Shown: positions 3,741-20,755, counted from the stretch's first letter. The stretch is 49,179 nt of DNA from an uncultured Spirochaetales bacterium (GCA_944388965.1 CALXKL010000011.1:1-49179); one strand, 5' to 3'. The notes: generated by a model from the letters alone, not told the origin. Translations and numbers: made by a program.

Positions 3741-5147
3741 TCAGCCCTTGTAGTGTTCGCCGATCTCCTCCTCCGTAAGCCTCTGCAGCTCCTCGGCAGG
3801 AAGAATTGAAAGACCTTCCCAGGCAAGGTCCAGCGTCTGCTCTATCGAGCGGTCCTCGTCGAAGGCCTGGTTGAGGAAGCGCTGCTCGAAGAACTCGCCG
3901 AACTTCATGTACAGGTTGTCCGTCTCGCTGAGCTCCTCCTCGCCGATGACCGACGCAAGGTTTCTCACATCCTTTACATGGCTGTAGGATGCGAACAGCT
4001 GGTTGGACAGATGCGGATGGTCCGCCCTGGTCATGCCCTCTCCGATGCCGTCCTTCATCAGACGGGAGAGAGACGAAAGACAGTTGACAGGCGGGTAGAT
4101 CCCTCTTCCTCCCAGGTCCCTGTCGAAGACGATCTGGCCTTCCGTGATGTATCCGGTGAGGTCCGGAATCGGGTGGGAGATGTCGTCGTTCGGCATCGTG
4201 AGAATCGGAAGCTGGGTGATGGACCCGCTGCGTCCGGAGATCTTGCCGGAGCGCTCGTACAGCTCTGCAAGGTTGGAGTACAGATATCCGGGGTATCCCT
4301 TTCTGGAAGGGATCTCTCCACGCAGCGTGCTGATCTCGCGCAGCGACTCGCAGTAGTTGGTCATGTCGGTCATTATCACCAGGACCTGCTTGCCCTTGTC
4401 GAATGCGAGATGCTCGGCCAGCGTCAGCGCGGTCCTCGGCGTGATCGTCCTCTCGATGGAGGGGTCGTCCGCAAGGGACAGAAAGAGCGCGACGTTGTCA
4501 AGGACACCGGTCTCCTCGAAGCTGTCCGTGAAGTACTTCGCGACATCGTACTTGACGCCCATGGCGGCGAACACGATCGCGAATTCGGATGCTCCGCCAC
4601 GGACCTTGGCCTGACGCACGATCTGTGCGGCCAGCTGGTTGTGGGACAGTCCGTTTCCCGAGAAGATCGGCAGCTTCTGGCCCTGGATGAGCGTCGTCAT
4701 GCCGTCGATGACGGAGATGCCTGTCTGGATGAAGTCCCTGGGGTACTCGCGGCTTGTCGGGTTGACCGGAGAGCCGTTGACGTCCCTGTCATCGCTGCCA
4801 CGCGGGTCGGCACCGCCGTCACGGCTGTGTCCAAGACCGTCCATGACGCGTCCAAGCATGTCCTCGGTCACCGAAAGCGACAGCGGCTCGCCCAGGAAGT
4901 GCATCCTGGTGTCGGGAAGGTCCAGACCATCGGTTCCCTCGAAGACCTGGACGCAGACGACATCGTCGGAGGTGTCCAGGACCTGTCCCTGACGTCTCGA
5001 CCCGTCGGGTGCGATGATCTCCACCAGCTCGCCATAGCCGACAGGATGCGTGTTCCTCATGTACACGAGCGGGCCGTCGATGCGGCTGGCCCCCCTGTAT
5101 TCCCTGCCTTTCAGCAGGTTTCTGTCGATGACGGTCTCAGTCCTCAT
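3741..5147 (-). CDS. atpB: V-type ATP synthase subunit B
   Basis: A 468-residue non-catalytic nucleotide-binding subunit of the A3B3 head. Recognisable family blocks are [15 protein letters not shown], the VIVFAAMGV-type strand (here [13 protein letters not shown]), [39 protein letters not shown] and [32 protein letters not shown]. It lacks a P-loop, as subunit B does. The start overlaps the subunit A stop by 11 bp. Length fits the family (460-470). Confidence 0.97.
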
Positions 5148-6915
5148 ACAGGCCTCCCAACTGTGTCATGGAGCGATGGAGCTTGAGTGCAAGCCTGTCT
5201 ATCTCCTCGATCCTGTCGTTGGAGATGTTGAAGCGCATCCTGGCCATCTCCTGGACGACGGAAAGTCTTCTTATCTTCACCATCGGGACACCCTGCGCGA
5301 TGGCCTGGCTGCCCTCGTCGTAGTACGTGAGGATAAGATCCATCATCGCAATCTGCTTCTCAGGCGAACAGTATCGGTCGATCTCGTCGAAGGCGTTCTG
5401 CTGGAGGAAGGCGTTCTTGAACAGTGTGCAGACCTCGAGTATGAAGTTCTGGCTGTCGGGAAGCGCATCGGCTCCGACCAGCTTGACTATCTGCTGCAGC
5501 CTGGTCTCCTTCTGCAGAAGCTCCATGATGCGCGCCCTGTTCCTAGACCACTTGCCCTGGCTCCTGTCATCCCACCAGCTCTTGAGCTCGCCGGCGTACT
5601 CGGAATAGGAGTCCAGCCAGCTGATGGCAGGATAGTGTCTGGCCGATGCAAGCGACCTGTCCAGTCCCCAGAAGCAGCGCACGAAACGACGCGTATGCTG
5701 CGTGACCGGTTCGGAGAAGTCGCCTCCGGGAGGACTCACGGCTCCGATGATGGACACCGAACCCTCTTCGCCGCACAGGGTACGGACATGGCCGGCCCTC
5801 TCGTAGAACTGGGCTATGCGCGTCGCCAGATAGGCGGGGAAGCCCTCCTCCGCCGGCATCTCCTCCATGCGTCCGCTGAGCTCCCTGAGGGCCTCTGCCC
5901 ATCTGGAAGTGGAATCGGCCATGATGGCGACGTTGTATCCCATGTCCCTGTAGTACTCGGCCATGGTGATGCCTGTGTAGATGCTGGCCTCGCGGGCGCT
6001 GACCGGCATGTTCGATGTGTTCGCGATGAGGATGGTCCTCTCCATGAGGCTCTTGCCGGTTCTCGGATCCACCAGATGAGGGAACTCGCGCAGGACGTCC
6101 GTCATCTCGTTCCCCCTTTCTCCGCAGCCGATGTAGACGATGATGTCCGCATCGCACCACTGGGCGATCGAATGCTGGGTCATCGTCTTTCCTGTTCCGA
6201 ATCCTCCCGGGATGGCGACGGTGCCGCCCTTGGCAAGGGGGAAGAGCGAGTCGATGACACGCAGTCCCGTGATCAGCGGCACATCGAGGTTCATCCTGTC
6301 CTTGATCGGACGGGGGACCCTGATGGGATGGTACTGGACCATGTCCAGTCTCTTCTGACGGCCGTCCTGCTCCAGTACGGCTATCTCGTGTCTGACGTCA
6401 TAATCGCCTTCGCTCTCGACCGAGATGACCGTCCATTCCCCCTGCATGGAGGACGGGACCATTATCCGATGCCTGACACGGCTGGTCTCGTCGACCTCGC
6501 CCAGGACCATGCCACGGGACACCGTGTCGCCGACGGAGACGACGGGTACGAAGTGCCACAGTCTCTTCTCGTCCACGGCGCCTGCCGATATGCCCTTGCC
6601 GATGAAGTCTCCGCTCAGACGGCGGAGCTCCTCCAGAGGGCGCTGTATTCCATCATATATGTTCCCGATCAGGCCGGGGCCGAGCTCGCATGACAGCGAC
6701 ATGCCCGATCCGTATACGTTGTCGCCAGGAGCGATTCCCGTCGCATCCTCGTAGACCTGCACCGTCGCGGTCGAGCCGGACAGCTTGACGATCTCGCCTA
6801 CGATCTGGCCTTCGCCCACGTGGACAAGCTCCATCATGGCGGCATCGGTAATGCCCTTCACCTGAAGGACAGGGCCGTTGACCCTCTTCACCTGACCTAT
6901 GATTCTGCCTTGCAT
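5137..6915 (-). CDS. atpA: V-type ATP synthase catalytic subunit A
   Basis: A 592-residue catalytic subunit. The P-loop GGFGTGKT is at residues 237-244, followed by [13 protein letters not shown] (catalytic-Glu block) and SRWAEALRE. The N-terminal beta barrel (1-70) and the bulge insertion typical of subunit A are present (SMQGEWTV). Shine-Dalgarno AGGAAAG precedes the ATG, which lies inside the end of the subunit E gene (19-bp overlap). Length is normal for bacterial A subunits (580-600). The enzyme either makes ATP or, as commonly in fermentative bacteria, pumps H+ or Na+; the sequence does not decide this. Confidence 0.97.
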
Positions 6916-7517
6916 GTGCTTTCCTGAATAATCTTCTTCATATCCTTGGCCATGCGCCTCATGCGCACGTCAAGCTGGTTGTTGTAGTAGACCTTGTCGT
7001 CAAGGCTTGCAAGCTGCACGCCCCAGCCTGAGACATGGTGCTCCTTGTCGAGCACGAGAGCCACGTTCATGCCGGTCTTGTGCGCAAGAAGCGCGCGGGC
7101 CTCTTCGAGCATGGCGTCGTCGACGCTCTCCCTGATGTCGTACTGGACCTTCGCCTCGCCCATTCCGAGACCGTATGCGGCCTCGGCGATCCACTGGACG
7201 AGGACGCCCCTTGCATCAGGTGAATGGAAGAGGGCCTCGAACAGCTCATCGACCCGCGCCATGACGGCGTCGTAGGCCGCGTCGTTGTTCCTAAGCTCGC
7301 GCGCACGCTCATAGGAGCGCACGGCGTTCTCCTCCCGGCTCCTGATGGCATCCAGGCGGATGGTCGTGTTGCGCCTCTCCTCCTCACAGGCCTTCTCGGC
7401 CTTGTGACGTGCCTCCTCGAGGATCTCGTCCGACTCCGCACGGGCCTTGGACAGCAGCTTGTCCGCCTCGGCTCTGGCAGTCTGGAGGATACCCTCGTAG
7501 ATCGGACTCTCACTCAT
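6897..7517 (-). CDS. atpE: V-type ATP synthase subunit E (peripheral stalk)
   Basis: A 206-residue protein with a long charged N-terminal coiled coil (about residues 1-100, rich in Ala/Glu/Arg heptads such as KLLSKARAESDEILEEARHKAEKACEEE shortened here to its pattern) and a globular C-terminal half ending in a DVRMRRMAKDMKK helix. This is the architecture of subunit E of the peripheral stator stalk, which pairs with the G/H protein encoded at the operon start. Start overlaps the subunit F stop by 4 bp. The assignment rests on architecture and operon position more than on a sharp motif. Confidence 0.85.
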   Translation of the reverse strand: MSESPIYEGILQTARAEADKLLSKARAESDEILEEARHKAEKACEEERRNTTIRLDAIRSREENAVRSYERARELRNNDAAYDAVMARVDELFEALFHSPDARGVLVQWIAEAAYGLGMGEAKVQYDIRESVDDAMLEEARALLAHKTGMNVALVLDKEHHVSGWGVQLASLDDKVYYNNQLDVRMRRMAKDMKKIIQESTCKAES

Positions 7518-7813
7518 ATCGAAACTCCAATCGCCTCGTTGACAAGGCTCCTGAGATCGCGCGACGAGGTCTTGCCGGGGTCCGGAATCTCGACGACAAG
7601 CGGGAAGCTTTCGCTGAAAAGATACCTGTCGACGGTCTCCCGGATCATGGACGCCACGGATTCCGTGATTATGATCACGGCGTTCTGGCTGTCCTCGATG
7701 GCCTTGTCCCAGGCCGCCCTGGCCTCGCCTTCGTCATGTACGCTGGCCCCCGACAGTCCCACAAGGGAGAAGCCCAGGGCCGTGTCCTCGTCTGCGATCA
7801 CGAAATACTTCAT
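7514..7813 (-). CDS. atpF: V-type ATP synthase subunit F
   Basis: A 99-residue Rossmann-like subunit F: MKYFVIADEDTALGFSLVGLSG at the N-terminus is the family signature (family members start xxxxVIGDxDTVxGFxLAG), followed by VIIITESVASMIRETVD and a basic/proline C-terminal strand. It binds the central stalk subunit D. It begins 9 bp after the subunit K stop and overlaps subunit E by 4 bp. Confidence 0.92.
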   Translation of the reverse strand: MKYFVIADEDTALGFSLVGLSGASVHDEGEARAAWDKAIEDSQNAVIIITESVASMIRETVDRYLFSESFPLVVEIPDPGKTSSRDLRSLVNEAIGVSI

Positions 7814-7822
7814 TACGGCGGC

Positions 7823-8188
7823 TCAGACCTTGGCGAGTATCATCAGTGCCGTGATGAATCCGAAGACGACGAGACCTTCGGCAAGCGCGATGAAGATCAG
7901 GGCGTTGGAAGCGATCTCGGGACGCTCTGATATCGCTCCCATGGCCGCGGAGCCGACCTTCGAGATGGCCATTCCTGCGCCGAGTGCGCCGAGGCCGAAA
8001 GCCAGGGCCGCCGCGATGCAGACCCATGCCGTGGTGTACTGGCCGGACGTCGGGCCCGTCACTGTCTCAGCGGCATACAGGCTCGGGGTGAACACGAAGG
8101 CACATCCCACCATGAGCAGGATAGTTGCCAGGAACGAAAGGCGGACCTTTCCCATGAATGCATGACTGGTCATATTAGACATCTCCAT
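7823..8188 (-). CDS. atpK: V-type ATP synthase subunit K (c-ring proteolipid)
   Basis: A 121-residue membrane proteolipid. After an N-terminal hydrophobic segment (17-39, ending in AYAA-like LYAAE, resembling a signal peptide) come two transmembrane helices: about 53-77, glycine-rich (ALAFGLGALGAGMAISKVGSAAMGA), and 96-119 carrying the ion-binding glutamate E104 in ALAEGLVVFG. It is thus a single-hairpin c subunit, unlike the duplicated 4-helix K of Enterococcus. Shine-Dalgarno AGGAAGAG precedes the ATG. The extra N-terminal segment could be cleaved or retained as a third helix. Confidence 0.93.
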   Translation of the reverse strand: MEMSNMTSHAFMGKVRLSFLATILLMVGCAFVFTPSLYAAETVTGPTSGQYTTAWVCIAAALAFGLGALGAGMAISKVGSAAMGAISERPEIASNALIFIALAEGLVVFGFITALMILAKV

Positions 8189-8195
8189 TCTCTTC

Positions 8196-10181
8196 CTAAT
8201 CGATCACGATACGGCTTCTGAGCCCCACCGGCTCGTATGCGATACCGCGACCTGTGAAATACTTTGTGAAGAACTCGTAGTAGTTCAGCCTGAGCGACTG
8301 GATTCCCGCACTGAGTCCCTCGATGGCAATGACGATGACATTGCCAAGGATCATTATGAGGACATAGGCGACGAGGTTGCCCGTCATGGCGGCCATGTCC
8401 TCGAATGCCGTCATGAGCGAGACATGTGCGATTCCCAGTCCCGCGACTCTCATGAACGAGAGAGTATTTGAGAGGAAACTGGAAAAAATTTCAAGGACCT
8501 GGACGAAGAAGTCCATCACCGTGTCGACGACGACGGATGACACCTTCTCCCTGTGGCCGCTCAGCTTCGCCTTGTGCGCGGCGTACACGGGTCCCTTGAC
8601 TATTATCATGACGAGACACAGCCCCAGTCCGGCATAGAGTGCCGGACTCGTCGGGAAGGCCCTGTAGCCTGTGTCGACGAAGTAGTAGCAGGCATAGATG
8701 CCCAAGGCGTACATGACGCCTCCGACCAGCCCGTTCTTGTCGAAGACCAGCTCGAGATAGCGTCTCTTGCGCACGAGGTTTATCCAGTTGAGTACCAGAC
8801 CGGTGAATATCACGGCGATGCCGAACTTTATGGTGATTCCAAGTATGTCGTATACGCTGCTTACCAGCCCGCCCTCGGCATGGCCGTTGACCACGGCATG
8901 GTAGTTGAACCAGATCGCCGGAAGCCAAGAGTAGCCGAAATACGAGCCGAAGAGCGCACCGCCGACCATGCTGGCCGGTCCCAGGAACATCAGCAGAGAG
9001 CACAGATAGCGAGAGATGAGACCGTCCTTCGCCATCGGATGGCGCCTGTACCACTGGCCGCCGATGATTCCGATCAGCAGGAGCACGAGGCCCTGTCCGA
9101 CGTCGGCGAACATCAGGGCGAACATGATTATGTATGCGACGGTAGTGAACGGAGTCGGGTTGATGGAACCGTACTCGGGAGTGCCGTAGTTCTTCACCAT
9201 GCGCTCGAACGGCGCCAGCACCTTCGCGCTGGAGACGGACGTGGGTATGCTCTGCCTGTCGACCTCGCTGTCATCGGTCCACTCGATGATGCACTTGCCC
9301 TTTGCGGCCTCGTAGATCACCGACTCGACCTCTCCGGCCTTCGCGGCGGGGACCCATCCCGAGAACAGCGTCGTGTTGCGCGTGTAGGAGAAGAAGGACT
9401 CCACATGGCCACTGAGTTCGCTGACACGAAGGAGAATCCACATCCTCTTGAGATCCTCGCCCTGCGCGGCGATCCTCTCCTTCACCTGACGGGCCAGGTC
9501 ATCCACCTTGCCCTGGATGGAGGCGCGCTTCTCCTCCAGCGCCCTGGATGCGATCTGAAGACTGTCCTTGTCGGCCTTCGGGCTCTCCGTCCAGCCGAAC
9601 TTGTCCATGATCTCGTCGATGCGGGAGACGTCCCTCTTGAGTGACAGCGACACGAGCATGCCACTGTCGTCCTTCGCAACGACGGCGCAGTACGGGGCCA
9701 GACGCATCATGAAATCGTCCAGCTTCCTGTCGGCTGATATGGAACCGATCCTCAGGTCTATGTACTCGGTCTTCTTCTCCTTGACGTACGACAGCATCTC
9801 GTCATATGCGACAAGGCGCTGGTTGAGGTTCCTCTGCTCCTCGCGAAGCCCGGCCATACCGGACGACAGTCCGTCCAGCGTCCTGCGGCAGGCATCCATG
9901 TCCAGACCGCCGAGCGAGTCGACGTCCGACTTCGATATCGGGGGAAGGTCGAGACCGCCCAGCTTCATGAGGTTCTCACAGCGGCCCCTGAGGTCTCCGA
10001 TCGCCCCTGTCGGGATGTCCACCTTGCGGCTGGAGAGTCTGGAGGCCTGCTCGCCGTCGAGCTGCGAGATGTGGACGAAGTCCATCACCCCCTCCTCCAG
10101 CAGGGCCTTGACGACGGCATCGCTGTATCCGTCCAGCACCACCGCCGTGAGCATCTTCATCTTCTGTGTAAACAGGCTCAA
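8196..10181 (-). CDS. atpI: V-type ATP synthase subunit I (a subunit)
   Basis: A 661-residue membrane stator subunit. The N-terminal half is cytoplasmic with coiled coils (KMKMLTAVVLDGY start, typical of the family); the C-terminal half from about residue 330 has seven or so transmembrane helices, including the conserved MFADVGQGLVLLLIG segment and FMRVAGLGIAH / YEFFTKYFTGRGIAYEP near the end, which line the ion half-channels. I chose the TTG at 10181: it has a good Shine-Dalgarno (AGGAGGGA) and overlaps the subunit C stop as TTGA. A longer frame upstream exists only because it overlaps subunit C. Confidence 0.95.
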   Translation of the reverse strand: MSLFTQKMKMLTAVVLDGYSDAVVKALLEEGVMDFVHISQLDGEQASRLSSRKVDIPTGAIGDLRGRCENLMKLGGLDLPPISKSDVDSLGGLDMDACRRTLDGLSSGMAGLREEQRNLNQRLVAYDEMLSYVKEKKTEYIDLRIGSISADRKLDDFMMRLAPYCAVVAKDDSGMLVSLSLKRDVSRIDEIMDKFGWTESPKADKDSLQIASRALEEKRASIQGKVDDLARQVKERIAAQGEDLKRMWILLRVSELSGHVESFFSYTRNTTLFSGWVPAAKAGEVESVIYEAAKGKCIIEWTDDSEVDRQSIPTSVSSAKVLAPFERMVKNYGTPEYGSINPTPFTTVAYIIMFALMFADVGQGLVLLLIGIIGGQWYRRHPMAKDGLISRYLCSLLMFLGPASMVGGALFGSYFGYSWLPAIWFNYHAVVNGHAEGGLVSSVYDILGITIKFGIAVIFTGLVLNWINLVRKRRYLELVFDKNGLVGGVMYALGIYACYYFVDTGYRAFPTSPALYAGLGLCLVMIIVKGPVYAAHKAKLSGHREKVSSVVVDTVMDFFVQVLEIFSSFLSNTLSFMRVAGLGIAHVSLMTAFEDMAAMTGNLVAYVLIMILGNVIVIAIEGLSAGIQSLRLNYYEFFTKYFTGRGIAYEPVGLRSRIVID

Positions 10182-11269
10182 TTCACTTCCCTCCTGATCT
10201 GATCCTCGCTCCAGCCGTAGTACTTCGCGGAGAGGATTGCCTTGATGGTGTTGTCCTCGCTCCGGCACAGGTAGATGTAGCTGAGAATCGTTCCGATGGT
10301 GAATGGGTCGCCGGAGAGGATGGATGTGAACTCCTTCCGCCTTCTCTTCGCCAGATAGTTCTCTATGGCGAGCGTACCATAGGCCAGCTCGCCGTGCGAG
10401 GTGGACAGCTCCCCCCTGGCCTCCATCTGGCCAAGCTGCTCGTTCACCTCGGGATATCTCCTCTTTATGATCTCACGCGCGTCCGCGAACGTCAGCTCCC
10501 CCTTCGACACCTTCTTCTCCAGGATGGAATAAAGGGAGCCGCGTGCGATGAAGACCCTGCTCAGTCTCGCGCTGTCGCAGTGGTGGTAGAAGCCGTAGCG
10601 GATCAGGTTGAGTATGTTCTTCAGGTCCGCATCGACGGTGTACACCTTCTCGGCGACCTCTCTGTCGGCCTTGTCGAGATGGTCCAGTGCGGCATACAGG
10701 CTGTCGAACCACAGATGGTCGAGGGCGATCTCGAAGTCGAAAAGGCCCTCCTTCTCGAGCCGCTGGTCGCTGTACTGACCGAACAGGCCGCTGTACGGGG
10801 TCGAATGGAATGCCTGCATGAGGTCGTCATACGTCAGCGCGTTCACGATGCGCGTCCAGTCGATGTCGTGCACGATCCTGCCGCGGTATATGTATGCCGC
10901 ACGGTAGCTTATCGAATGATGCAGGGCATTGGCCGAATACCACAGCCTGACCGCGTTCTTGATGTTCTCGATCTCGCTCTTCTCGAGCAGCACGCTGACG
11001 AACGAAGCCGGGCGGGGGTCCAGGGCATGGATGATGTCCTTGTGCACATCGACCTCGCGGCTGAAGAGCGCGAGCTCCACCTGCTGAAGATCCGCCGTAC
11101 GGGCATAAACCTGGGCAAGCTCGTCGTACTGCGTACCCGAAAGCGACGCGATGGCCTCGCCGAGATTGGGCGCCTTGATCATCGAGTCCAGTATGCCCGA
11201 CGACATCATCGAGCCGATACGGGCCCTCAGCTTGGAATTGATGTATCCATAGCGGGAGACGCTGTCCAT
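10178..11269 (-). CDS. atpC: V-type ATP synthase subunit C (AC39/d type)
   Basis: A 363-residue alpha-helical funnel-shaped subunit that couples the central stalk to the K ring. The N-terminal YGYINSKLRARIG and the segments ENIKNAVRLWY, DADLKNILNLIRYGF, and GTLAIENYLAKRRRKEF match subunit C/d family blocks. The start overlaps the stop of the preceding gene by 1 bp and the end overlaps subunit I by 4 bp. Length is normal (330-370). Confidence 0.92.
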   Translation of the reverse strand: MDSVSRYGYINSKLRARIGSMMSSGILDSMIKAPNLGEAIASLSGTQYDELAQVYARTADLQQVELALFSREVDVHKDIIHALDPRPASFVSVLLEKSEIENIKNAVRLWYSANALHHSISYRAAYIYRGRIVHDIDWTRIVNALTYDDLMQAFHSTPYSGLFGQYSDQRLEKEGLFDFEIALDHLWFDSLYAALDHLDKADREVAEKVYTVDADLKNILNLIRYGFYHHCDSARLSRVFIARGSLYSILEKKVSKGELTFADAREIIKRRYPEVNEQLGQMEARGELSTSHGELAYGTLAIENYLAKRRRKEFTSILSGDPFTIGTILSYIYLCRSEDNTIKAILSAKYYGWSEDQIRREVN

Positions 11270-11613
11270 CAGGACCTCGATGAAAACAGAGGGACGGATG
11301 TCACGAGGTCGACGATCCTGCGGCTTGCCTCCTCCACGGCCGAGGTGTCGACCTCCACCGTGGCCTGCATGAGCTGTCCGCTCTTCTCGTCCAGCTCCCT
11401 GAGCTTCTCGTCCAGGGCCCGGCTGGCCTGCTCGACTATTCCGTCGGCACGTCTGCGCTCGGCCTCGAGCTCTTCCTTCACTATGCCTGCGGCCTTCGTC
11501 TGGGCATCCAGGACCATGGTCCTGGCCTCGTCGTCGGCCTGTTTCCTGATAGCCTGGGCCTCGTCCTCTACGCTGAGGATCCTGTCGATGACTTCGCTTC
11601 TCATTTTCAGCAC
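11269..11613 (-). CDS. V-type ATP synthase subunit G/H-like coiled coil
   Basis: A short, charged, Ala/Glu/Arg-rich coiled-coil protein (114 residues from the GTG chosen here) fitting the G/H partner of subunit E in the peripheral stalk; the pattern EDEAQAIRKQADDEA is typical. It is the first gene of the ATPase operon. The start is uncertain: an in-frame TTG at 11649, this GTG at 11613, or ATG at 11604. The GTG is preferred because a perfect TTGACA (11644-11649), 17-bp spacer and GAATAT end 7 nt before it, matching the leaderless pattern seen elsewhere in the window, while no Shine-Dalgarno fits. Identity is based on architecture and position. Confidence 0.78.
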   Translation of the reverse strand: MLKMRSEVIDRILSVEDEAQAIRKQADDEARTMVLDAQTKAAGIVKEELEAERRRADGIVEQASRALDEKLRELDEKSGQLMQATVEVDTSAVEEASRRIVDLVTSVPLFSSRS

Positions 11614-11620
11614 CAGCTCA

Positions 11621-11649
11621 ATATTCTTTTCTCTCGCCCTTAATGTCAA
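11621..11649 (-). promoter_or_regulatory. Candidate promoter of the V-ATPase operon
   Basis: Minus strand: TTGACA (11644-11649, perfect -35), 17-bp spacer, GAATAT (11621-11626, weak -10), then 7 nt to a GTG codon. No terminator is seen between the usher gene and this point, so read-through from the chaperone/usher operon is also possible. Confidence 0.4.
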
Positions 11650-11711: not shown

Positions 11712-14700
11712 TCACCGGCCGAAGTCCTGGCTGATCTCATCGTCGGTAAGAGGCGGGAACAGCTCGTTCCAGAAGGTTGCCGAGTCGATGATCCTGACTG
11801 GACTGATGTCCACAAGCCCCTGGTAGCCGGAAAGATAGCCGTCGACACCTTCGGCGGCCATAGTGCTGTCGAAGGAGAAGGCATGCCGCGCAGCCATGTC
11901 GGAGTCGAAGTCGAGCGTTCCGTAGTCCACAACCCTCAGCTCGTCGTCATCCAGCGCTTCGACGTCGAATCGGACGGCGTACCACAGTCCATCGTATTCC
12001 ACATCGAAGACATATGTGCCGGGCTCCACGCCGGAGATTATGAAGCGGCCGTCCTGGTCGGCGAACAGATACAGAGAGATGTCGCCTTCGAGCCGGAGGC
12101 CTCCATCCTCGTCCTCCACCACCCTGTATACAGGCGAGCTGAAAGTGTTCTGGACCACGCCGTCGAAGGCCAGCAGGCCGCTGACCGTGTACTCCTGCGG
12201 AACGCTTATCCTGATGGAGTAGCCGGACCGGTTGTCCGGGTTGAGCTCATATGCGAAGGTCTGCGTCTCGGCGAACTCGTCGTCGCCTGTCACGTAGACG
12301 ACGATGTTGTTCCGCTGATAGCTGGACAGGGAGGAATAGACTCCGGTGCCGAACACACTGTCGATGTCCTGTGCACTGCCCTGGTTGGAACGCGCGACCT
12401 GGATCTGGGCTCCGGACAACGACCCGCGGGGCCTGATCAGCACGAAGCTGTCGCGCACGGAGCGGCTGATGCCGAACACGCCACCGGAGAAGTAGCTTGC
12501 GCTGGACAGGCTCGCCGACAAGTTCAGCCTGTCATACCTGTCATATGCAGAGGCGCGCACACTCAGTCCGAACAGGTCGCCGCTGTGGTACCAGCTTCCC
12601 GACAGGGTGTGGTCGTCGATCCGGCCGAAGTCGAAGCCGGACAGGCTGGCCGAGAAGCTGTCCCTGTTGCCCACCGAGAAGCTCGTGGACAGACTGTGGG
12701 TGCCGGTGAAGCCTGTCGAATAGGATCCGCTGGCCCTTCCACCGAAGGAGAAGCTGGCCGTCAGATAGCCCGAGATGCCTACATCCTCTCCCCTCTTCAA
12801 CGACTGGCTTGCCGTAATTCCCGCGGATATGCCGAGGTTCCTCATCGGGCTGACAGAGAACGAGGTGCTCACTCTCCACTCGCTTCGATCCAGGTCATAG
12901 CCGTCCACCACGAGATTGCCCGAGGCGCTGTAGCGCAGGAAGCCCAGCGAACCGGAGAACGACAGACGGAAGGAGAGCCGGTCCCCTTCACCTGAATTGT
13001 AGCTGCTGTTCGCGTACGAGATGGACGTGCTGACGCCTCTTACAACGGTCCAGTCGAACAGGAAGCTGTGGTCGAGTCTGGCCTGAAAGTCGAACTCCCG
13101 CCCTCTCTCGGCTGCACTGTCCAGGATGCCGTCCGCACTCAGCGTCGTCGTGCCCAGCAGCCAGGCCCGTCTCAAGGCGACGGAGGCGTCAAGTATTCCG
13201 CGATCCGGAGCGATTCGCATGCTGAAGTCGCTCATGAGGGTCATCTCGTCGCTCAGACCGACGTCCTGATACCAGGAGATCACGACGTCATCCAGATGAT
13301 AATCGTAGTAATACTGTGGAGAGACGCGCAGCAGCAACCCCGTGGCCTCGTCCTCGTTTCCCACGTCGATCTGGCTGCGGCCGATGTTGATGGACCCGCC
13401 GAAAAGCGTCTCCCCCCTGCTCAGTAGCTGCGAATCGTACGACATGTCGAAATACTGCCTGTAGGACACGTCCTCCAGCATGGCCAGCACCTGTGGATCG
13501 CTGCGGTCCAGCGAAGGGTCCACGAGTCTGGAGGGCGTGACAACGATCTCGATCTCGTTGTAGCCGGAATCGAACGTGAAGTCCTCCAGTCTGTAGTTGC
13601 CCGGCTGAAGAAGACGATGGAAGACGATCCGGCCGTTGCGCACGATCCAGATGTAGGACTCCTCGACGATCGTCACGTACTCCCTGTGGCTGTTGCCGGG
13701 GCTGGTGATGCTACCGTAGCTGTAGCTCTTCTCGAACTGCACGCCCAGCGGAGTGCCCTGCGGCGACTGGCCGAAGCCGTAGACGTTGCCCCAGCTCAGC
13801 CTGATGCCCTCGTCGACGAAGTCATAAAAGAAGCGGTACGAGTTCCAGCTGAAATGGAACTCGTCGTTCCTGACGCCGAGATTGTAGAAGAAGTCGAAGT
13901 CGACCGGTCCCAGCGTGAGATAGTTCGACACGGCGAGGTTCACGGAATAGCCGAAAAGGTCATCGTCGAAGGCCCAGTCGAGACTGGTGTAGAGGTTGTA
14001 GCCCGTCCTCCAGCTGAACCAGTCGGGTTCGATCGGCTGCGCACCGGACAGGCTGTAGCTGCGTCTGGACCAGGAGCCTCCCGACAGGCTGATCACGCGC
14101 TCGGGCATGTCCTCCAGAGAGAAGGCCATGTCGATCGTGAAGCCGACCTCGTCATAGGTGACGCGCACCCCGTTGTCCTCGAAATGTCTGATGGACACGT
14201 AGTCGCCGACCCCATCGACGAGTAGTCTGCGATAGGCGCTGTCCGTCAGAAGCCCTGACAGGTACATCTGCAGCTGGGAGGTGTTCATCAGGCGCTCCCC
14301 ATCCTGGAAGAGGATCTCGAGGTTGCCCATCGTCTCGCCGTCGACCGTAAACATGAAATAGTACAGCCCGTCGTCGTATTCGAGAGTGTCCTGGCCCTGG
14401 ACGAAGAACGTTGCGAAGAAGTCGTCGTCATACACGGGCTCGTCGGAGCCGGTTATGATTATCTGGGGAACGTATGCGAATGCATCAAGAATCGTCGGCG
14501 GAGCCGGGACCCTTGCCGTCCCGACGGCCTCGCCGATGCCGCTGCTGTCCGGAGTTCCGACATCGACGCCTGGAGCCTCCTCGACATCGGCATCCAGGTG
14601 GACGTCATCCGTGACACCCTGCGCGACAGCCTCGTCGACCGGTCTGGACGCAGTCGGCTCCTCCTGGGCATCAGGCATGAGGGATTGATGAGCATCGGGG

Positions 14701-15014
14701 ACGGACGGGCCGCCATCATCCTCGCACCCCACATCCTCATCCATGTCGTAATCCAGCGCATCATCAATTTCCAGAGGCTCCGGGACACAGGTTCCGGCAG
14801 GCTCGTCCCCACTGGCATCCTGGGACGATGCCGAGTGCCCGGTATCGTCACTGTGGACCTCGTTGGACGATGTCGACACGACAGCGGTGCCAGGCACGGG
14901 TGCAGAGTGTGTCCTGAACAGATGAATCGTGACGAACGAGAGGAGACAGACAAGCACCGTGACGAGAAACGTCAGCGGAAGCACTCTTGCAAGATTCGTC
15001 GAACGCCTTTTCAT
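11712..15014 (-). CDS. Divergent PapC/FimD-type outer-membrane usher
   Basis: An 1100-residue usher for a chaperone-usher secretion system. Residues about 10-31 form one hydrophobic helix (signal anchor or signal peptide), followed by an unusual acidic, Ser/Pro/Asp-rich linker to about residue 165; the usher proper then has a Tyr/Ser/Gly-rich beta barrel. Usher landmarks: a middle-domain block with IWIVRNGRIVFHRLLQPGNY and FTFDSGYNEIEIVV, the YQDVGLSDEMTL repeat, and near the C-terminus FVLIRPRGSLSGAQIQV then VFGTGVYSSLSSYQRNNIVV, which correspond to the FimD end of barrel. Typical ushers are 780-860 residues; the excess is the N-terminal linker. The ATG has a GGGGGG Shine-Dalgarno. It is 45 bp downstream of the chaperone gene and surely co-transcribed. 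No pilin is nearby. Confidence 0.82.
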   Translation of the reverse strand: MKRRSTNLARVLPLTFLVTVLVCLLSFVTIHLFRTHSAPVPGTAVVSTSSNEVHSDDTGHSASSQDASGDEPAGTCVPEPLEIDDALDYDMDEDVGCEDDGGPSVPDAHQSLMPDAQEEPTASRPVDEAVAQGVTDDVHLDADVEEAPGVDVGTPDSSGIGEAVGTARVPAPPTILDAFAYVPQIIITGSDEPVYDDDFFATFFVQGQDTLEYDDGLYYFMFTVDGETMGNLEILFQDGERLMNTSQLQMYLSGLLTDSAYRRLLVDGVGDYVSIRHFEDNGVRVTYDEVGFTIDMAFSLEDMPERVISLSGGSWSRRSYSLSGAQPIEPDWFSWRTGYNLYTSLDWAFDDDLFGYSVNLAVSNYLTLGPVDFDFFYNLGVRNDEFHFSWNSYRFFYDFVDEGIRLSWGNVYGFGQSPQGTPLGVQFEKSYSYGSITSPGNSHREYVTIVEESYIWIVRNGRIVFHRLLQPGNYRLEDFTFDSGYNEIEIVVTPSRLVDPSLDRSDPQVLAMLEDVSYRQYFDMSYDSQLLSRGETLFGGSINIGRSQIDVGNEDEATGLLLRVSPQYYYDYHLDDVVISWYQDVGLSDEMTLMSDFSMRIAPDRGILDASVALRRAWLLGTTTLSADGILDSAAERGREFDFQARLDHSFLFDWTVVRGVSTSISYANSSYNSGEGDRLSFRLSFSGSLGFLRYSASGNLVVDGYDLDRSEWRVSTSFSVSPMRNLGISAGITASQSLKRGEDVGISGYLTASFSFGGRASGSYSTGFTGTHSLSTSFSVGNRDSFSASLSGFDFGRIDDHTLSGSWYHSGDLFGLSVRASAYDRYDRLNLSASLSSASYFSGGVFGISRSVRDSFVLIRPRGSLSGAQIQVARSNQGSAQDIDSVFGTGVYSSLSSYQRNNIVVYVTGDDEFAETQTFAYELNPDNRSGYSIRISVPQEYTVSGLLAFDGVVQNTFSSPVYRVVEDEDGGLRLEGDISLYLFADQDGRFIISGVEPGTYVFDVEYDGLWYAVRFDVEALDDDELRVVDYGTLDFDSDMAARHAFSFDSTMAAEGVDGYLSGYQGLVDISPVRIIDSATFWNELFPPLTDDEISQDFGR

Positions 15015-15059
15015 GTTCCCCCCTGACACGCCTTGACAGAAGACGGAAGAGATCCTATG

Positions 15060-15803
15060 TCACTGGGCTCCGATGTCGAAGTCGTAGTCGATCGAGGCGC
15101 TGTATGTCGAGCCGGAGGCTAGCCCTGCAGGCATCGGGACGTCCTTCGTCCAGCTCATTCCAGCCAGGATGTTGGACCCCGAGATGCCGGGCAGCGCATC
15201 AGATCCGCTCAATGTGACCTCGCCACCTTCGCCGTCACGTATGCGGATCTCGCAGTCGTAGAGTATCTGATGGACATTGCCGTTGTTCGTGAGCGTCACG
15301 GCCAGCGTACCGTCACCGTTGTCCACCACGGACGAGACCTGCACGTTCTCCTGCACCCTGCTCGGAAGCACATATGCGCTGGCCCTGAAGACATAAAGGA
15401 AGTTGAACATGCTGCCCGATGAGGCGATGCGTCCCTGCGAATAGGGAATCTGCTCCGCGACGATCCTGAACGACAGCTCACGGGTCACTGTGCGGGGCCC
15501 CCTGTACTGTACACGCACAATCTGCGAACTCTGAGGCTGTATGAGAATCCTGGAAGGCTGTATGTTGAAATACCTGGAGGCATCCGAGTTCACCTCATTG
15601 CCCTCCCCGTCCTGCGTCCTGACAAGAGCGCTCACCACGACCGCTATTATGTCGTCGCTGTCGTTGGTGATGGTGAAGGTCTTCGTCGCACCCGCACCGG
15701 AGACGTCGAACGTCTGCACAAGCGGCTCGAACTGGAACGCCGAAAGCGAAGCGCAGACAAGCGCCAGCAGAATCGCAATGAAAAGAAGTGACTTATGTCT
15801 CAT
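15060..15803 (-). CDS. PapD-like periplasmic chaperone
   Basis: A 247-residue periplasmic chaperone with a clear signal peptide (MRHKSLLFIAILLALVCASLSA, cut before F23) and two immunoglobulin-like domains. The first has TKTFTITNDSDD, then ILIQPQSSQIVRVQYRG and RELSFRIVAEQIP, the family's FGL-side strands; the second is shorter and ends in a Ser/Tyr-rich strand. It should cap and deliver subunits to the usher encoded just downstream. ATG 15803 is chosen: it has a Shine-Dalgarno (AGAGAGG) and lies the right distance from the promoter; an in-frame GTG eight codons earlier would sit at the transcription start. What subunit it serves is unknown. Confidence 0.85.
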   Translation of the reverse strand: MRHKSLLFIAILLALVCASLSAFQFEPLVQTFDVSGAGATKTFTITNDSDDIIAVVVSALVRTQDGEGNEVNSDASRYFNIQPSRILIQPQSSQIVRVQYRGPRTVTRELSFRIVAEQIPYSQGRIASSGSMFNFLYVFRASAYVLPSRVQENVQVSSVVDNGDGTLAVTLTNNGNVHQILYDCEIRIRDGEGGEVTLSGSDALPGISGSNILAGMSWTKDVPMPAGLASGSTYSASIDYDFDIGAQ

Positions 15804-15827
15804 GTTGGCCTCTCTTTGATTCACCAC

Positions 15828-15857
15828 ATTATACTGTCATGAAACGCCATTTCGCAA
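15828..15857 (-). promoter_or_regulatory. Promoter of the chaperone-usher operon
   Basis: Minus strand: TTGCGA (15852-15857), 18-bp spacer, perfect TATAAT (15828-15833). The expected transcription start near 15821 leaves an 18-20 nt leader containing the Shine-Dalgarno of the chaperone gene. Confidence 0.7.
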
Positions 15858-16366: not shown

Positions 16367-18235
16367 TCAATATGACATGATTATTCCGATCGAGAACTGG
16401 AAGTCCGACGCCCTCCTGCCCTTCATGTTCATGTAGTTGAAGATCGTGACACAGTCCGCCTTGCCCTCTATCGTAAGCCAGTCGGTGATCTGGACATCGG
16501 CACTGATGGTGAACAGCAGCGTGTGGCTCACCGCGTCCTTCACCCTGTGGTCGTCGTAGATGTAGCTGCCCAGGGAGGAAGACGAGGTCGGCCCCATCAC
16601 ATCCCTGTCCACCATGGACCATCGGGAGTAGCGGTCCATGACGCCCTGCACCAGATACATGAAGTTCCCTTCCATGCTCCAGCCGCGGTAGTCCTTCCAG
16701 CCCAGATTCAGATCGGCCACGATGCTGTCGTTTCCATATCGGTAGCCCAGGAACTCGAGCGAATAGTTGGCGACTCTCTGCCCTCCCGTCCCGTTTACGT
16801 ACTCGGGGACGGCGACGATGAAGTTCACGCCGTAGGCACCGCTTCCTCTGGGATCGCGTCCGTCGTCCCTCAGATAGAGGAAGGGGTCTGTGTACACGCC
16901 CTCCAGAGAACCGTACAGGTAGCCGTGCTCCATCGGCCAGCTGGTCCTGATGCCTACCTGGGCGCCGAAGGCGGAAGGCGGAAACGGTTCGTCGGAGTCG
17001 TATTCGCCCGGTCCGTTTATCTCGTCGATCAGGAACACGGCGTAGAAGTTGAAGTTCCGGAAGATGGTCATGTCCAGCTCGAACGACAGGAGCGAATTGG
17101 CATTTCCCCTAATGTAGTAGTTGTGGAAGAGCGCTGTCGGGCTCAACACCGACAGGTCGATGTTCCCGCTCTCGGACTGGTACATGATGGCCTCGGTGAT
17201 TGCCATGTCGGCCCTCTCACCTATCCTCCATTCGAGCCGGTGGGCGATGAACATGCTCAGCCCCTCGCGAGGTCTGGCCTGGTCGTAGTACAGATCCAGA
17301 TAGTCGAACCATTTATCCTGCCCGTCCCGGGGATCGGTCTCATGCACCCTGAACGTGTAGTTCATCGGGTGGATGAACGACGAGACGCTGAAGGTGTACT
17401 TGAAGCTCCTGGTGAAGGCGCTGAAGCGGGCGTTGTTGTGGTATGGGATCTGGTCGCCGATCATCAGGTTGCCGGTGACCCCCGGTCCCCAGCTGAGCTT
17501 CTGGCGACCTATCATGAGGTTCCAGTGTTCGCCGCCGGCACTCGCGAAGGCGCTGTATGGAAAGTTCAGGTTGAAGTCGTTCCCTTCCCCCGGAGGAAGC
17601 AGGAACACGTTCGAGAGGATGTTGCGGCCACTGTAGGAGACACTCGAAGGGCTTGTCGTGACGGATGTCACCTGTCCATTGGCGTCGGCACTCACCTGAC
17701 CGATCTCATGGATGTCGGCAAGCATGGAGCGGTTCGCACCGGCCTGGATCTCCGTATAGCCGTACATGTGATCGCCGATGGAGATCTCCAGAGGTATTGC
17801 AAGCAGGCTCTCCATCCTGTTCCAATCACCCCACCATCCGTCATTGGACCAGTCGTCCGGATTTGTGAAGTCGTCGCTGTTAGAATGGACATACATGTAC
17901 GGACTGAAGACGATTCCGGCATCGATTGCAAGCGCATCGTCAGGCTGGAAGCGCGGCCTTCTTCCCAGCTCGTCCGCAATCATGTCGTAAAGCCGCCTCT
18001 CTCCCGCCGAGAGCCTCGAGACATCGATGCGCTCCAGCATCATGTCCATCTCCGCAACCGTCCATGGCCCCGTGGAGGATGGTGCGGCCATGCCTTGGGA
18101 GAAGTAGAGAGCGCACATCGCATCATAAAGCCCGTCGTCGACTGCAACGACCCGCTGGCCGTTTCCCCCATAGGCTGCCACGGTCGAGACGATGCACAGG
18201 ATGAACGTGATGATGAATGATGCTTTCCTCTTCAT
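16367..18235 (-). CDS. Wzi-like (capsule assembly) outer-membrane beta-barrel protein
   Basis: A 622-residue exported protein with a clean signal peptide (MKRKASFIITFILCIVSTVAAYG). After an N-terminal helical region (about 25-110, including LYDMIADELGRRPRF), the body is made of amphipathic aromatic strands ending in a C-terminal Tyr, as in outer-membrane barrels. Features such as MIGRQKLSWGPGVTGNLMIGD and FIHPMNYTF recall the Wzi/capsule-assembly family (in which an FGR..WGPG motif is common). No capsule genes are adjacent, so the role in polysaccharide attachment is inference. The ATG at 18235 is chosen because it begins the signal peptide; upstream is a terminator, so it is a separate transcript. 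Confidence 0.75.
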   Translation of the reverse strand: MKRKASFIITFILCIVSTVAAYGGNGQRVVAVDDGLYDAMCALYFSQGMAAPSSTGPWTVAEMDMMLERIDVSRLSAGERRLYDMIADELGRRPRFQPDDALAIDAGIVFSPYMYVHSNSDDFTNPDDWSNDGWWGDWNRMESLLAIPLEISIGDHMYGYTEIQAGANRSMLADIHEIGQVSADANGQVTSVTTSPSSVSYSGRNILSNVFLLPPGEGNDFNLNFPYSAFASAGGEHWNLMIGRQKLSWGPGVTGNLMIGDQIPYHNNARFSAFTRSFKYTFSVSSFIHPMNYTFRVHETDPRDGQDKWFDYLDLYYDQARPREGLSMFIAHRLEWRIGERADMAITEAIMYQSESGNIDLSVLSPTALFHNYYIRGNANSLLSFELDMTIFRNFNFYAVFLIDEINGPGEYDSDEPFPPSAFGAQVGIRTSWPMEHGYLYGSLEGVYTDPFLYLRDDGRDPRGSGAYGVNFIVAVPEYVNGTGGQRVANYSLEFLGYRYGNDSIVADLNLGWKDYRGWSMEGNFMYLVQGVMDRYSRWSMVDRDVMGPTSSSSLGSYIYDDHRVKDAVSHTLLFTISADVQITDWLTIEGKADCVTIFNYMNMKGRRASDFQFSIGIIMSY

Positions 18236-18330
18236 TCCTCTTACCCGGATACTCTCACAATCGGCCGGAAAAATCCACACATGGCTGCCATCTGCGTATC
18301 AGAACGGACGACTGTGCTGTCACAAACATG

Positions 18331-18397: not shown

Positions 18398-20755
18398 TCA
18401 GCAGGCGCGCTCGATATACGCCTTGACCGCCGCGATTCCACTGGCGATCTCGGCCTCCTCACCACAGAGGGCTACCAGTGTCGGAGCCTGCATGATGTGG
18501 TACTTCCTGGCCAGGTCCGCGTTTTCCTCGGCATCGACGACCTCGTAGCTCACGCCGGCCTTGTCAAGAGCCGCCTTGGCAGTCCTGCAGTTCGGGCAGG
18601 TCTTGGTCGTGAAGAGCATGAGCCTGGTGGCATGGTCGACCACCGTGTTCTGTCTGTTGCGGACATGGGAGCCGTGGAAGTGGCTGGTCTCGAGGACGTA
18701 CTCCTTCCTCTCCTTGAACTCCTCGGTCTTGCCGACGTTCCAGTTCTGGACAGGGCGGTAGTAGCCCGTGATCCTCGAATACACCTCGGTGGTCTTGCCG
18801 CAGGTCGGGCACTTGTAGACCTCGCCGGTGATGTATCCATGGTCAGGGCACACCGAATAGGTCGGGCTGAGCGTGTAGTACGGCATCTCGTAGTTCTCGG
18901 CGATCTTGCGCACGATCTCGGCCGCGGCCTTCCAGGTGGGAAGCTTCTCTCCGAGGAAGACGTGGAAGACGGTACCGGAGGTGTACAGCGTCTGCATCCT
19001 GTCCTGGATGTCCAGGGCCGTGAAGATGTCGTCCGTGTAGCCGACCGGCAGGTGCGACGAGTTGGTGTAGTACGGAGCCGCAGCGTTGTCGCTGGCCGTG
19101 ATGATCGCCGGGAAGTCCTCGACGTCATGCTTGGCGAAGCGGTAGCTGGTGGACTCGGCGGGTGTCGCCTCCAGGTTGTACAGGTCGCCGTACTGCTCCT
19201 GATAGTCGGACAGGCGCTCCCTCATGTGGTTGAGCACCTCGACGGAGAAGTCCTGCGCCTCCTTGTGCGTCAGATCCATCCTGAGCCAGCAGGCGTTCAG
19301 ACAGGCCTCGTTCATTCCGACCAGTCCGATGGTCGAGAAGTGGTTGTTGAACGAACCCAGGTAGCGCTTCGTGTACGGATACAGTCCCTCGTCCAGGAGT
19401 TTGGTGATGACGGTCCTCTTGACCTTGAGGCTACGGGCCGCGACGTCCATCAGGTGGTCGAGGCGATGATAGAAGTCGTCCTTGTCCTTGCTCTGGTACG
19501 CCATGCGCGGCATGTTGAGCGTGACGACTCCGATCGAACCGGTGGACTCGCCGGATCCGAAGTAGCCGCCGGACTTCTTCCTCAGCTCCCTGAGGTCCAG
19601 GCGCAGGCGGCAGCACATGCTGCGCACATCGCTGGGCTCCATGTCTGAGTTGATGTAGTTGGAGAAGTACGGGGTTCCGTACTTTGCGGTCATCTCGAAC
19701 AGGAGCCTGTTGTTCTCGGTCTCGGACCAGTCGAAGTCCTTGGTGATGGAATAGGTCGGAATCGGGTACTGGAAGCCGCGCCCGTTGGCGTCGCCTTCGA
19801 TCATGACCTCGATGAAGGCCTTGTTGACCATGTCCATCTCGGCCTTGCACTCGCCGTATGTGAAGTCCATCTCCCTGCCGCCGACAATGGCCTTCCTGTC
19901 CTTCATGTCAGGTGGGCAGACCCAGTCGAGCGTGATGTTCGTGAACGGTGCCTGGCAGCCCCATCTGGAAGGCGTGTTGACGCCGTAGACGAAAGACTGG
20001 ATGCACTGCTTGACCTCGTCGTAGTCGAGCTGGTCGACCCTGACGAAGGGTGCCAGATAGGTGTCGAACGAACTGAACGCCTGGGCTCCGGCCCACTCGT
20101 TCTGCATGATGCCGAGGAAGTTGACCATCTGGTTGCACAGCGTGGACAGGTGCTTGGCGGGAGCGGACGTGATCTTGCCCGTGACGCCGCCCAGGCCCTC
20201 CTCTATCAGCTGTCTGATGGACCAGCCTGCACAGTAGCCGGAGAGCATCGACAGGTCGTGCAGATGGAAGTCGCACTTCCTGTGCGCGTCGGCGATCTCC
20301 TGGTCGTAGATCTCGCTGAGCCAGTAGTTGGCGGTGATGGCGCCGCTGTTGGACAGGATGAGTCCGCCCAGCGAGTAGTTGACCGTGCTGTTCTCCTTGA
20401 CGCGCCAGTCGCTTGCACCCAGATAGCCGTCCACGACGTTCTTGTAGTCCAGGTATGTGGACTTCATGTTGCGGATCTTCTCGCGCTGCTTCCTGTACAG
20501 GATGTACGTCTTGGCGACATCGGTGTATCCGGCTGCGGACAGGACGCTCTCGACGCTGTCCTGGATGTCCTCGACCTGGATTCTGCCATCCCTGATCTTC
20601 TTCTCGTAATCGCTCGTCACCTTGAGGGCGATGAAGTCGATTATGTCGTCGTTGTACTGCTTTCCGCTGGCGTCGAAGGCCTTCTTGATCGCACCCGCGA
20701 TCTTCCTGATATCAAAGGACACGACCTTGCCGTCTCTCTTGACCACTTCGTACAT
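18398..20755 (-). CDS. nrdD: Anaerobic ribonucleoside-triphosphate reductase with C-terminal glutaredoxin-like domain
   Basis: A 785-residue class III ribonucleotide reductase that makes deoxynucleotides without oxygen. Residues 1-95 are an ATP-cone (allosteric) domain starting MYEVVKRDGKVVSFD. The catalytic barrel spans about 100-630. The zinc site reads C636-x2-H639 ... C649-x2-C652, with His where a Cys is usual in the T4/E. coli enzymes. The glycyl-radical residue is G664 in RITGYYRP. Uniquely placed after this, residues about 710-785 form a thioredoxin-fold/glutaredoxin-like domain with active-site C720-P-N-C723 (TTKTCPNCRTAK) and a cis-Pro motif (MQAPTL). This suggests a redoxin-driven rather than formate-driven enzyme. 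Shine-Dalgarno GAGGTG precedes the ATG. Its activase NrdG is upstream; tandem NrdR boxes lie between. Confidence 0.96.
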   Translation of the reverse strand: MYEVVKRDGKVVSFDIRKIAGAIKKAFDASGKQYNDDIIDFIALKVTSDYEKKIRDGRIQVEDIQDSVESVLSAAGYTDVAKTYILYRKQREKIRNMKSTYLDYKNVVDGYLGASDWRVKENSTVNYSLGGLILSNSGAITANYWLSEIYDQEIADAHRKCDFHLHDLSMLSGYCAGWSIRQLIEEGLGGVTGKITSAPAKHLSTLCNQMVNFLGIMQNEWAGAQAFSSFDTYLAPFVRVDQLDYDEVKQCIQSFVYGVNTPSRWGCQAPFTNITLDWVCPPDMKDRKAIVGGREMDFTYGECKAEMDMVNKAFIEVMIEGDANGRGFQYPIPTYSITKDFDWSETENNRLLFEMTAKYGTPYFSNYINSDMEPSDVRSMCCRLRLDLRELRKKSGGYFGSGESTGSIGVVTLNMPRMAYQSKDKDDFYHRLDHLMDVAARSLKVKRTVITKLLDEGLYPYTKRYLGSFNNHFSTIGLVGMNEACLNACWLRMDLTHKEAQDFSVEVLNHMRERLSDYQEQYGDLYNLEATPAESTSYRFAKHDVEDFPAIITASDNAAAPYYTNSSHLPVGYTDDIFTALDIQDRMQTLYTSGTVFHVFLGEKLPTWKAAAEIVRKIAENYEMPYYTLSPTYSVCPDHGYITGEVYKCPTCGKTTEVYSRITGYYRPVQNWNVGKTEEFKERKEYVLETSHFHGSHVRNRQNTVVDHATRLMLFTTKTCPNCRTAKAALDKAGVSYEVVDAEENADLARKYHIMQAPTLVALCGEEAEIASGIAAVKAYIERAC

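Follow-up and report, generated by a model that had tools for sequence, protein, structure and literature searches.

The question raised by this locus is what a chaperone-usher pair may assemble when no pilin gene is found beside it, and why its usher should begin with a hydrophobic helix and a long acidic linker. The DNA analysed (the window) comprises 49,179 nucleotides from an uncultured Spirochaetales bacterium and was found to be the entire contig C11 of a 2.1-Mb genome (G000).

Gene organization of the chaperone-usher locus

The chaperone gene on the minus strand was found to be followed by the usher gene and then by a V-type ATPase operon (Table 1), the first gene of which lies about 60 bases from the end of the usher gene. 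By Pfam, the operon contained a small stalk-like protein followed by subunits C, I, K, E, A, and B. The 5′ side of the chaperone gene contained a terminator-like hairpin as well as the gene of a Wzi-like outer-membrane protein, and the 3′ side of the usher gene was occupied by the V-ATPase genes. No subunit-like gene adjoining the pair was found on either flank in the window, and the PapD-like chaperone and usher without a neighbouring pilin, reported in the first-pass annotation, were found to be real. No terminator-like site was found on the same strand in the interval between usher and V-ATPase genes, the promoter-like and terminator-like sites of the window being consensus matches only.

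The Wzi-like (capsule assembly) protein upstream of the chaperone (window 16367-18280) was present in three of the compared loci. The adjacent region (window 18398-20755) was found to encode NrdD, an anaerobic ribonucleotide reductase, which here carries a C-terminally fused glutaredoxin domain.

Table 1. Features of the chaperone-usher locus, in coordinates of the window
Feature	Position	Strand	Basis
V-type ATPase operon, directly downstream of usher	3741..11649	-	Pfam; neighbourhood kept in about 20 genomes
Usher, 1100 aa from best start ATG 15014	11712..15014	-	Pfam Usher; profile alignment to G186 usher
C-terminal beta domain of usher	11910..12239	-	Weak CarboxypepD_reg-like match
Plug-region motif (VTIVEESYIWIVRNGRIVFHRLLQPGNYRLEDFTFDSGYNEIEIVVTP)	13524..13691	-	Alignment with FimD and G186 usher
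Putative usher N-terminal (chaperone-binding) domain	14082..14423	-	Collinear with FimD and G186 usher
Acidic Ser/Pro/Asp linker, about 160 residues	14430..14915	-	Composition; low-confidence model
Hydrophobic N-terminal helix, about 20 residues, proposed inner-membrane anchor	14916..14984	-	Sequence
PapD-type periplasmic chaperone, 247 aa, ATG at 15803	15060..15803	-	Pfam PapD_N; homologue alignment
Promoter-like site TTGCGA-18-TATAAT before chaperone gene	15828..15857	-	Consensus match only

The chaperone

The window chaperone was matched by Pfam PapD_N with 31.6 bits (cut-off 23) and was found to contain an ordinary signal peptide. The superfamily Pro (Pro91) and the non-classical Arg (Arg121, both in the numbering of the 255-aa ORF) were found to be conserved in 21/21 chaperone homologues. 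In the sequence alignment, the Pro corresponded to Pro60 of EcpB and Arg121 to Arg89 of EcpB, a position at which the classical FimC contains Trp. The Pro is an invariant hallmark of these chaperones, and the Arg marks archaic and alternative chaperones and is absent in classical ones, the C-terminus-binding arginine being Arg89 of CsuC and EcpB (PMC4654587). EcpB was found to be the best solved-structure match of the chaperone by sequence as well as by fold search, and CupB2 and CsuC also ranked high in the fold search, at low TM scores, the chaperone model itself being weak (57.7). Because the Pro and Arg hallmarks are conserved in 21/21 chaperones and EcpB is the best structural match, the system, as judged from the chaperone sequence, belongs with the non-classical chaperone-usher pathways and is read as working like them.

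WxLIP proteins of Enterococcus faecium also belonged to the top fold matches obtained with the chaperone model (window 15060-15827), and a wider structural kinship between the modelled chaperone and these proteins is possible. The window chaperone was found to be acidic (pI 4.5), and the idea that the acidic linker of the usher recruits a basic chaperone was therefore dropped.

The putative usher barrel

The usher reading frame opens at GTG 15029 (1105-aa ORF), and the best start contained GGGGGG just upstream. Pfam Usher matched the window usher with an E-value of 1.1e-5 and 24.9 bits, slightly below the cut-off of 27.1, and no match of this profile at E 0.001 was found in the window's own genome; the homology searches were therefore run with the usher protein itself. 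The usher family profile was aligned with the ordinary usher of another spirochaete, G186, over 709 columns (E 3.7e-15), and the usher was found to be collinear with FimD in alignment (E 0.008). The usher structure predicted from three closely related sequences was too poor for use (pLDDT 35), and when PDB was searched with a profile of the full usher alignment, the low-complexity linker dominated the result. An extra plug, which had been proposed as one reading of the usher, is not needed, since an ordinary plug-region motif was found within the barrel.

Distribution of the pair and a second operon

The usher was detected in 27/61 genomes searched, among them 13/16 genomes of the same genus (G001 being counted only via its paralogue) as well as numerous other genera in the family, and no usher was found outside this spirochaete family in the set of 61 genomes. 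A peptide-pattern scan of genome contigs gave only two close relatives. The chaperone gene was found to precede the usher gene at 21/21 loci examined. About 20 genomes from a single spirochaete family contained the pair immediately upstream of the V-ATPase genes and without a pilin gene, and the open frames of the pair were intact in more than 20 genomes. Because about 20 genomes of one family contained the same layout, the pilin-free pair is an old conserved unit and not the product of a recent loss. Of pilin genes beside the pair in relatives, which the first-pass annotation had named as the sign of such a loss, the single case found was one pilin-like gene in G022, about 20 genomes being pilin-free at this place.

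A second type of usher was found to split off with full support in the usher tree (contig C10 of G000, which is locus L029, together with G001 and G030). Behind the second-type usher, a row of secreted proteins was found, one of them large (about 420-500 aa) and the others of about 190-240 aa, and this gene layout is as expected of a chaperone-usher operon. In G000, the second operon (L029:7101-19476) was found to be complete, with about 12 secreted proteins following the usher.

The N-terminus of the usher

The hydrophobic helix of the window usher was found at about residues 16-38 of the 1105-aa ORF, and no AxA-type cleavage site was found in this protein. The linker contained 23% D+E and 2% K+R, and almost no secondary structure was present in it in the low-confidence usher model (pLDDT 35); from this composition and model the linker is probably disordered. 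The hydrophobic helix and the acidic Ser/Pro/Asp linker described in the first pass are present, the linker being about 160 residues long and not 130. The complete ushers of the family likewise contained a long hydrophobic stretch followed by an acidic-rich, basic-poor linker, which in some genera was also proline-rich. The median length of the hydrophobic core was 21 residues in ushers, 16 in chaperones, and 15 in subunits (p 1e-7).

The second-type ushers were found to contain three predicted N-terminal membrane helices (the G000 usher at L029, and L033) or seven (L035:7507-11250 of G030, a 1247-aa ORF in which the helices lie ahead of the acidic linker and the barrel). These multi-helix ushers contained ribosome-binding sites at their starts, only about 30 bases from the chaperone gene. 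Since a seven-helix signal peptide is not credible, at least the multi-helix ushers of the second type are, on the predicted helices, membrane-anchored. For the single-helix ushers, the window's included, inner-membrane anchoring is probably the better reading than cleavage, because the complete ushers open with a helix of transmembrane length followed by the acidic linker.

A rather unlikely alternative is that the pathway is split in the same way and the helix is a cleaved signal peptide, the acidic stretch being a disordered periplasmic extension of an ordinary usher. An AxA-like site close to where the core ends was found in 6/23 single-helix ushers vs 34/74 control proteins, and the groups were not separated (p 0.14; three multi-helix ushers, and L010 and L012 with doubtful starts, were left out of the count). 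The controls being not significantly different, the cleavage-site count failed as an arbiter of the anchor question. Against cleavage stand the core length, which fits a membrane anchor, the three or seven helices ahead of the same kind of linker in the paralogues, and the window usher itself, with no AxA-type site found. The usher of G186 was found to contain an apparently ordinary signal peptide and no linker. The suggestion that the window usher reaches from the inner membrane is supported, short of proof, by the long helix of the complete members and by the multi-helix paralogues. It is reasonably likely that the ushers of the family are trans-envelope proteins, composed, in a single chain, of an inner-membrane anchor of one to seven helices, a disordered acidic linker through the periplasm, and an outer-membrane secretion barrel, and that they serve as a general platform for subunits whose genes are scattered over the genome.

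Candidate subunits on another contig

In G022, a 203-aa secreted protein with the C-terminal end APGDYESTVVMSYTTT was found directly before the chaperone. The search was carried from this protein, through an alignment of its relatives, to gene blocks in the same-genus genomes with the orphan pair. The alignment A2, a conserved member of the block, matched the window's own genome at contig C17 (E 8.9e-73), beside a rhomboid protease gene. Four secreted proteins with signal peptides (ORFs of 235, 241, 187, and 201 aa) were found there between the adenosine deaminase and rhomboid genes.

A pilin-like C-terminal strand motif was present in 74/89 secreted cluster ORFs vs 7/130 secreted background ORFs. 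Of the seven motif-bearing background ORFs, at least four were chaperone-usher subunits or look-alikes, including EcpA of E. coli. In the complete operon of G186, the subunits were found to end with the same motif. For the C17-type subunits, no reliable match was obtained with Pfam, NCBIfam, or PDB (nothing meaningful was found in PDB with the subunit profile), and no SCPU match was found among 47 family subunits. The number of subunit genes ranged from 1 to about 8 per genome, and in other genera one or two such genes were found, on different contigs from the pair. Wherever the subunit genes were found, they were on another contig than the pair, with unrelated neighbours, with the exception of G022. 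From their motif and distribution, the proteins of the C17 block are likely to be the fibre subunits which are missing beside the orphan pair.

Extra pilin-like genes were found at other places in G015 (L122:315-3149, 8821-10605) and in G003 (L055), which suggests several subunit sets per usher.

Co-occurrence and co-loss of the pair and the subunit block

The subunit block was present in 11/11 same-genus genomes that contain the orphan pair and in which the locus is assembled (G000 and ten others) and absent in 4/4 same-genus genomes without the pair (G001, G004, G006, and G007), in which the flanking genes were present (Fisher p 0.0007, calculated by hand with kinship not corrected for). The nearest relative, G002, stands outside this count, its contig ending 151 bp after the deaminase gene. 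In G006, a 527-aa ORF (L132:6324-7907), by eye probably a SulP-type permease, was found at the position of the subunit block between the rhomboid and adenosine deaminase genes.

The strongest case for a link between the pair and the subunit block was found in G001, which shares 95-98% identity with G012 in its V-ATPase proteins. At the pair locus of G001, the chaperone was missing and only an N-terminal stub and some 85 residues of the C-terminus were left of the usher; at the subunit locus, the missing stretch corresponded exactly to the subunit block (4.29 kb in G012), with flanks 91-92% identical. Because both were lost at two separate, unlinked loci in G001, the pair and the subunit block are taken to work together. 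The expectation that the substrate is encoded elsewhere is well supported by this co-occurrence and co-loss of the pair with the pilin-like block.

It is improbable that the pair exports something other than a pilin (e.g., surface layer or soluble proteins) and that the C17 block serves another pathway. Such a reading would fit the lack of recognisable pilin domains in the subunits and the range in subunit gene number between genomes, but the pair and the C17 block were co-lost at two loci and matched in presence and absence within the genus, and the C-terminal motif is common to EcpA and the G186 operon subunits. In addition, subunits are already present beside the second usher of G000, and a second usher was lacking in ten of the eleven genomes in which a C17-type block was found. 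That the pair is a degenerate remnant, non-functional since its pilin genes were lost, which would agree with the lack of a subunit beside the pair and with the loss seen in G001, is highly improbable with open frames intact in so many genomes and the functional residues kept in every chaperone aligned.

Relation to known systems

The system resembles the archaic pathway (Csu of Acinetobacter, CupE of Pseudomonas) in its two-domain chaperone with the Pro and the non-classical Arg, its usher with a putative N-terminal domain and a plug-region motif, and its subunits, which terminate in the C-terminal strand. The SCPU domain is a domain of archaic pili. In the phylum-wide sample of 149 genomes, the chaperone was detected at E 1e-5 only in the window's genome and in G186, which belongs to another family of the class and was found to contain a complete operon of subunit, chaperone, usher, and large subunit, the large subunit with an SCPU domain (25.7 bits, cut-off 22.4). 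An SCPU subunit, as in the archaic pathway, was thus found only in this related operon, whereas the subunits of the spirochaete family are unlinked from the pair and without an SCPU match, and their usher contains the N-terminal helix and the long acidic linker. The host phylum is also outside the published list of archaic systems, which covers proteobacteria, Cyanobacteria, and Deinococcus-Thermus (PMC4654587, PMC10104325).

The E. coli common pilus EcpABCDE (alternative pathway) is alike in that the chaperone is, among solved structures, closest to EcpB and EcpA contains the same C-terminal motif, but the ecp genes lie in one cluster and the spirochaete usher has the extra helix and linker ahead. 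Subunit genes in one cluster with chaperone and usher, a feature of chaperone-usher pathways, were found for the orphan-type pair only in G022. The orphan ushers of Enterobacteriaceae are similar in having no adjoining pilin, but no orphan usher genes were found in a survey of E. coli (PMC3559732), whereas the pilin-free state here is common to most of the family.

Proteins of the VirB10/TonB type are trans-envelope proteins with an inner-membrane helix, a long linker, and an outer-membrane part. The spirochaete usher is similar to them in topology, as an analogy and with no sequence relation claimed, but its outer part is a predicted usher barrel. No report of spirochaete ushers, or of an usher anchored in the inner membrane, was found in the open-licence literature searched.

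Proposed assembly route and its meaning

It is quite probable that the pair serves as the assembly platform in a functional chaperone-usher pathway of the non-classical kind, with the subunits encoded elsewhere and the usher probably tethered to the inner membrane. The subunits of the C17 block would enter the periplasm via ordinary signal peptides. There, the chaperone would hold each subunit by its C-terminal strand and hand it to the N-terminal domain of the usher, followed by polymerisation into the putative fibre and secretion through the usher barrel. The N-terminal helix would stay in the inner membrane and the acidic linker would cross the periplasm, so that a single usher polypeptide would link both membranes. 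The pathway is probably of a known kind, namely non-classical chaperone-usher, and what appears new is the split genome layout together with the probably inner-membrane-tethered usher.

A family-wide chaperone-usher system is present in spirochaetes, with sequences so diverged that standard profiles barely detect it. Its split layout is a warning that a search for subunits restricted to the neighbourhood of the usher will overlook pili. If the tether is true, the usher would be physically joined to the inner membrane, which would bear on the route of the subunits to the outer membrane and on the insertion of a beta barrel carrying an uncleaved membrane helix.
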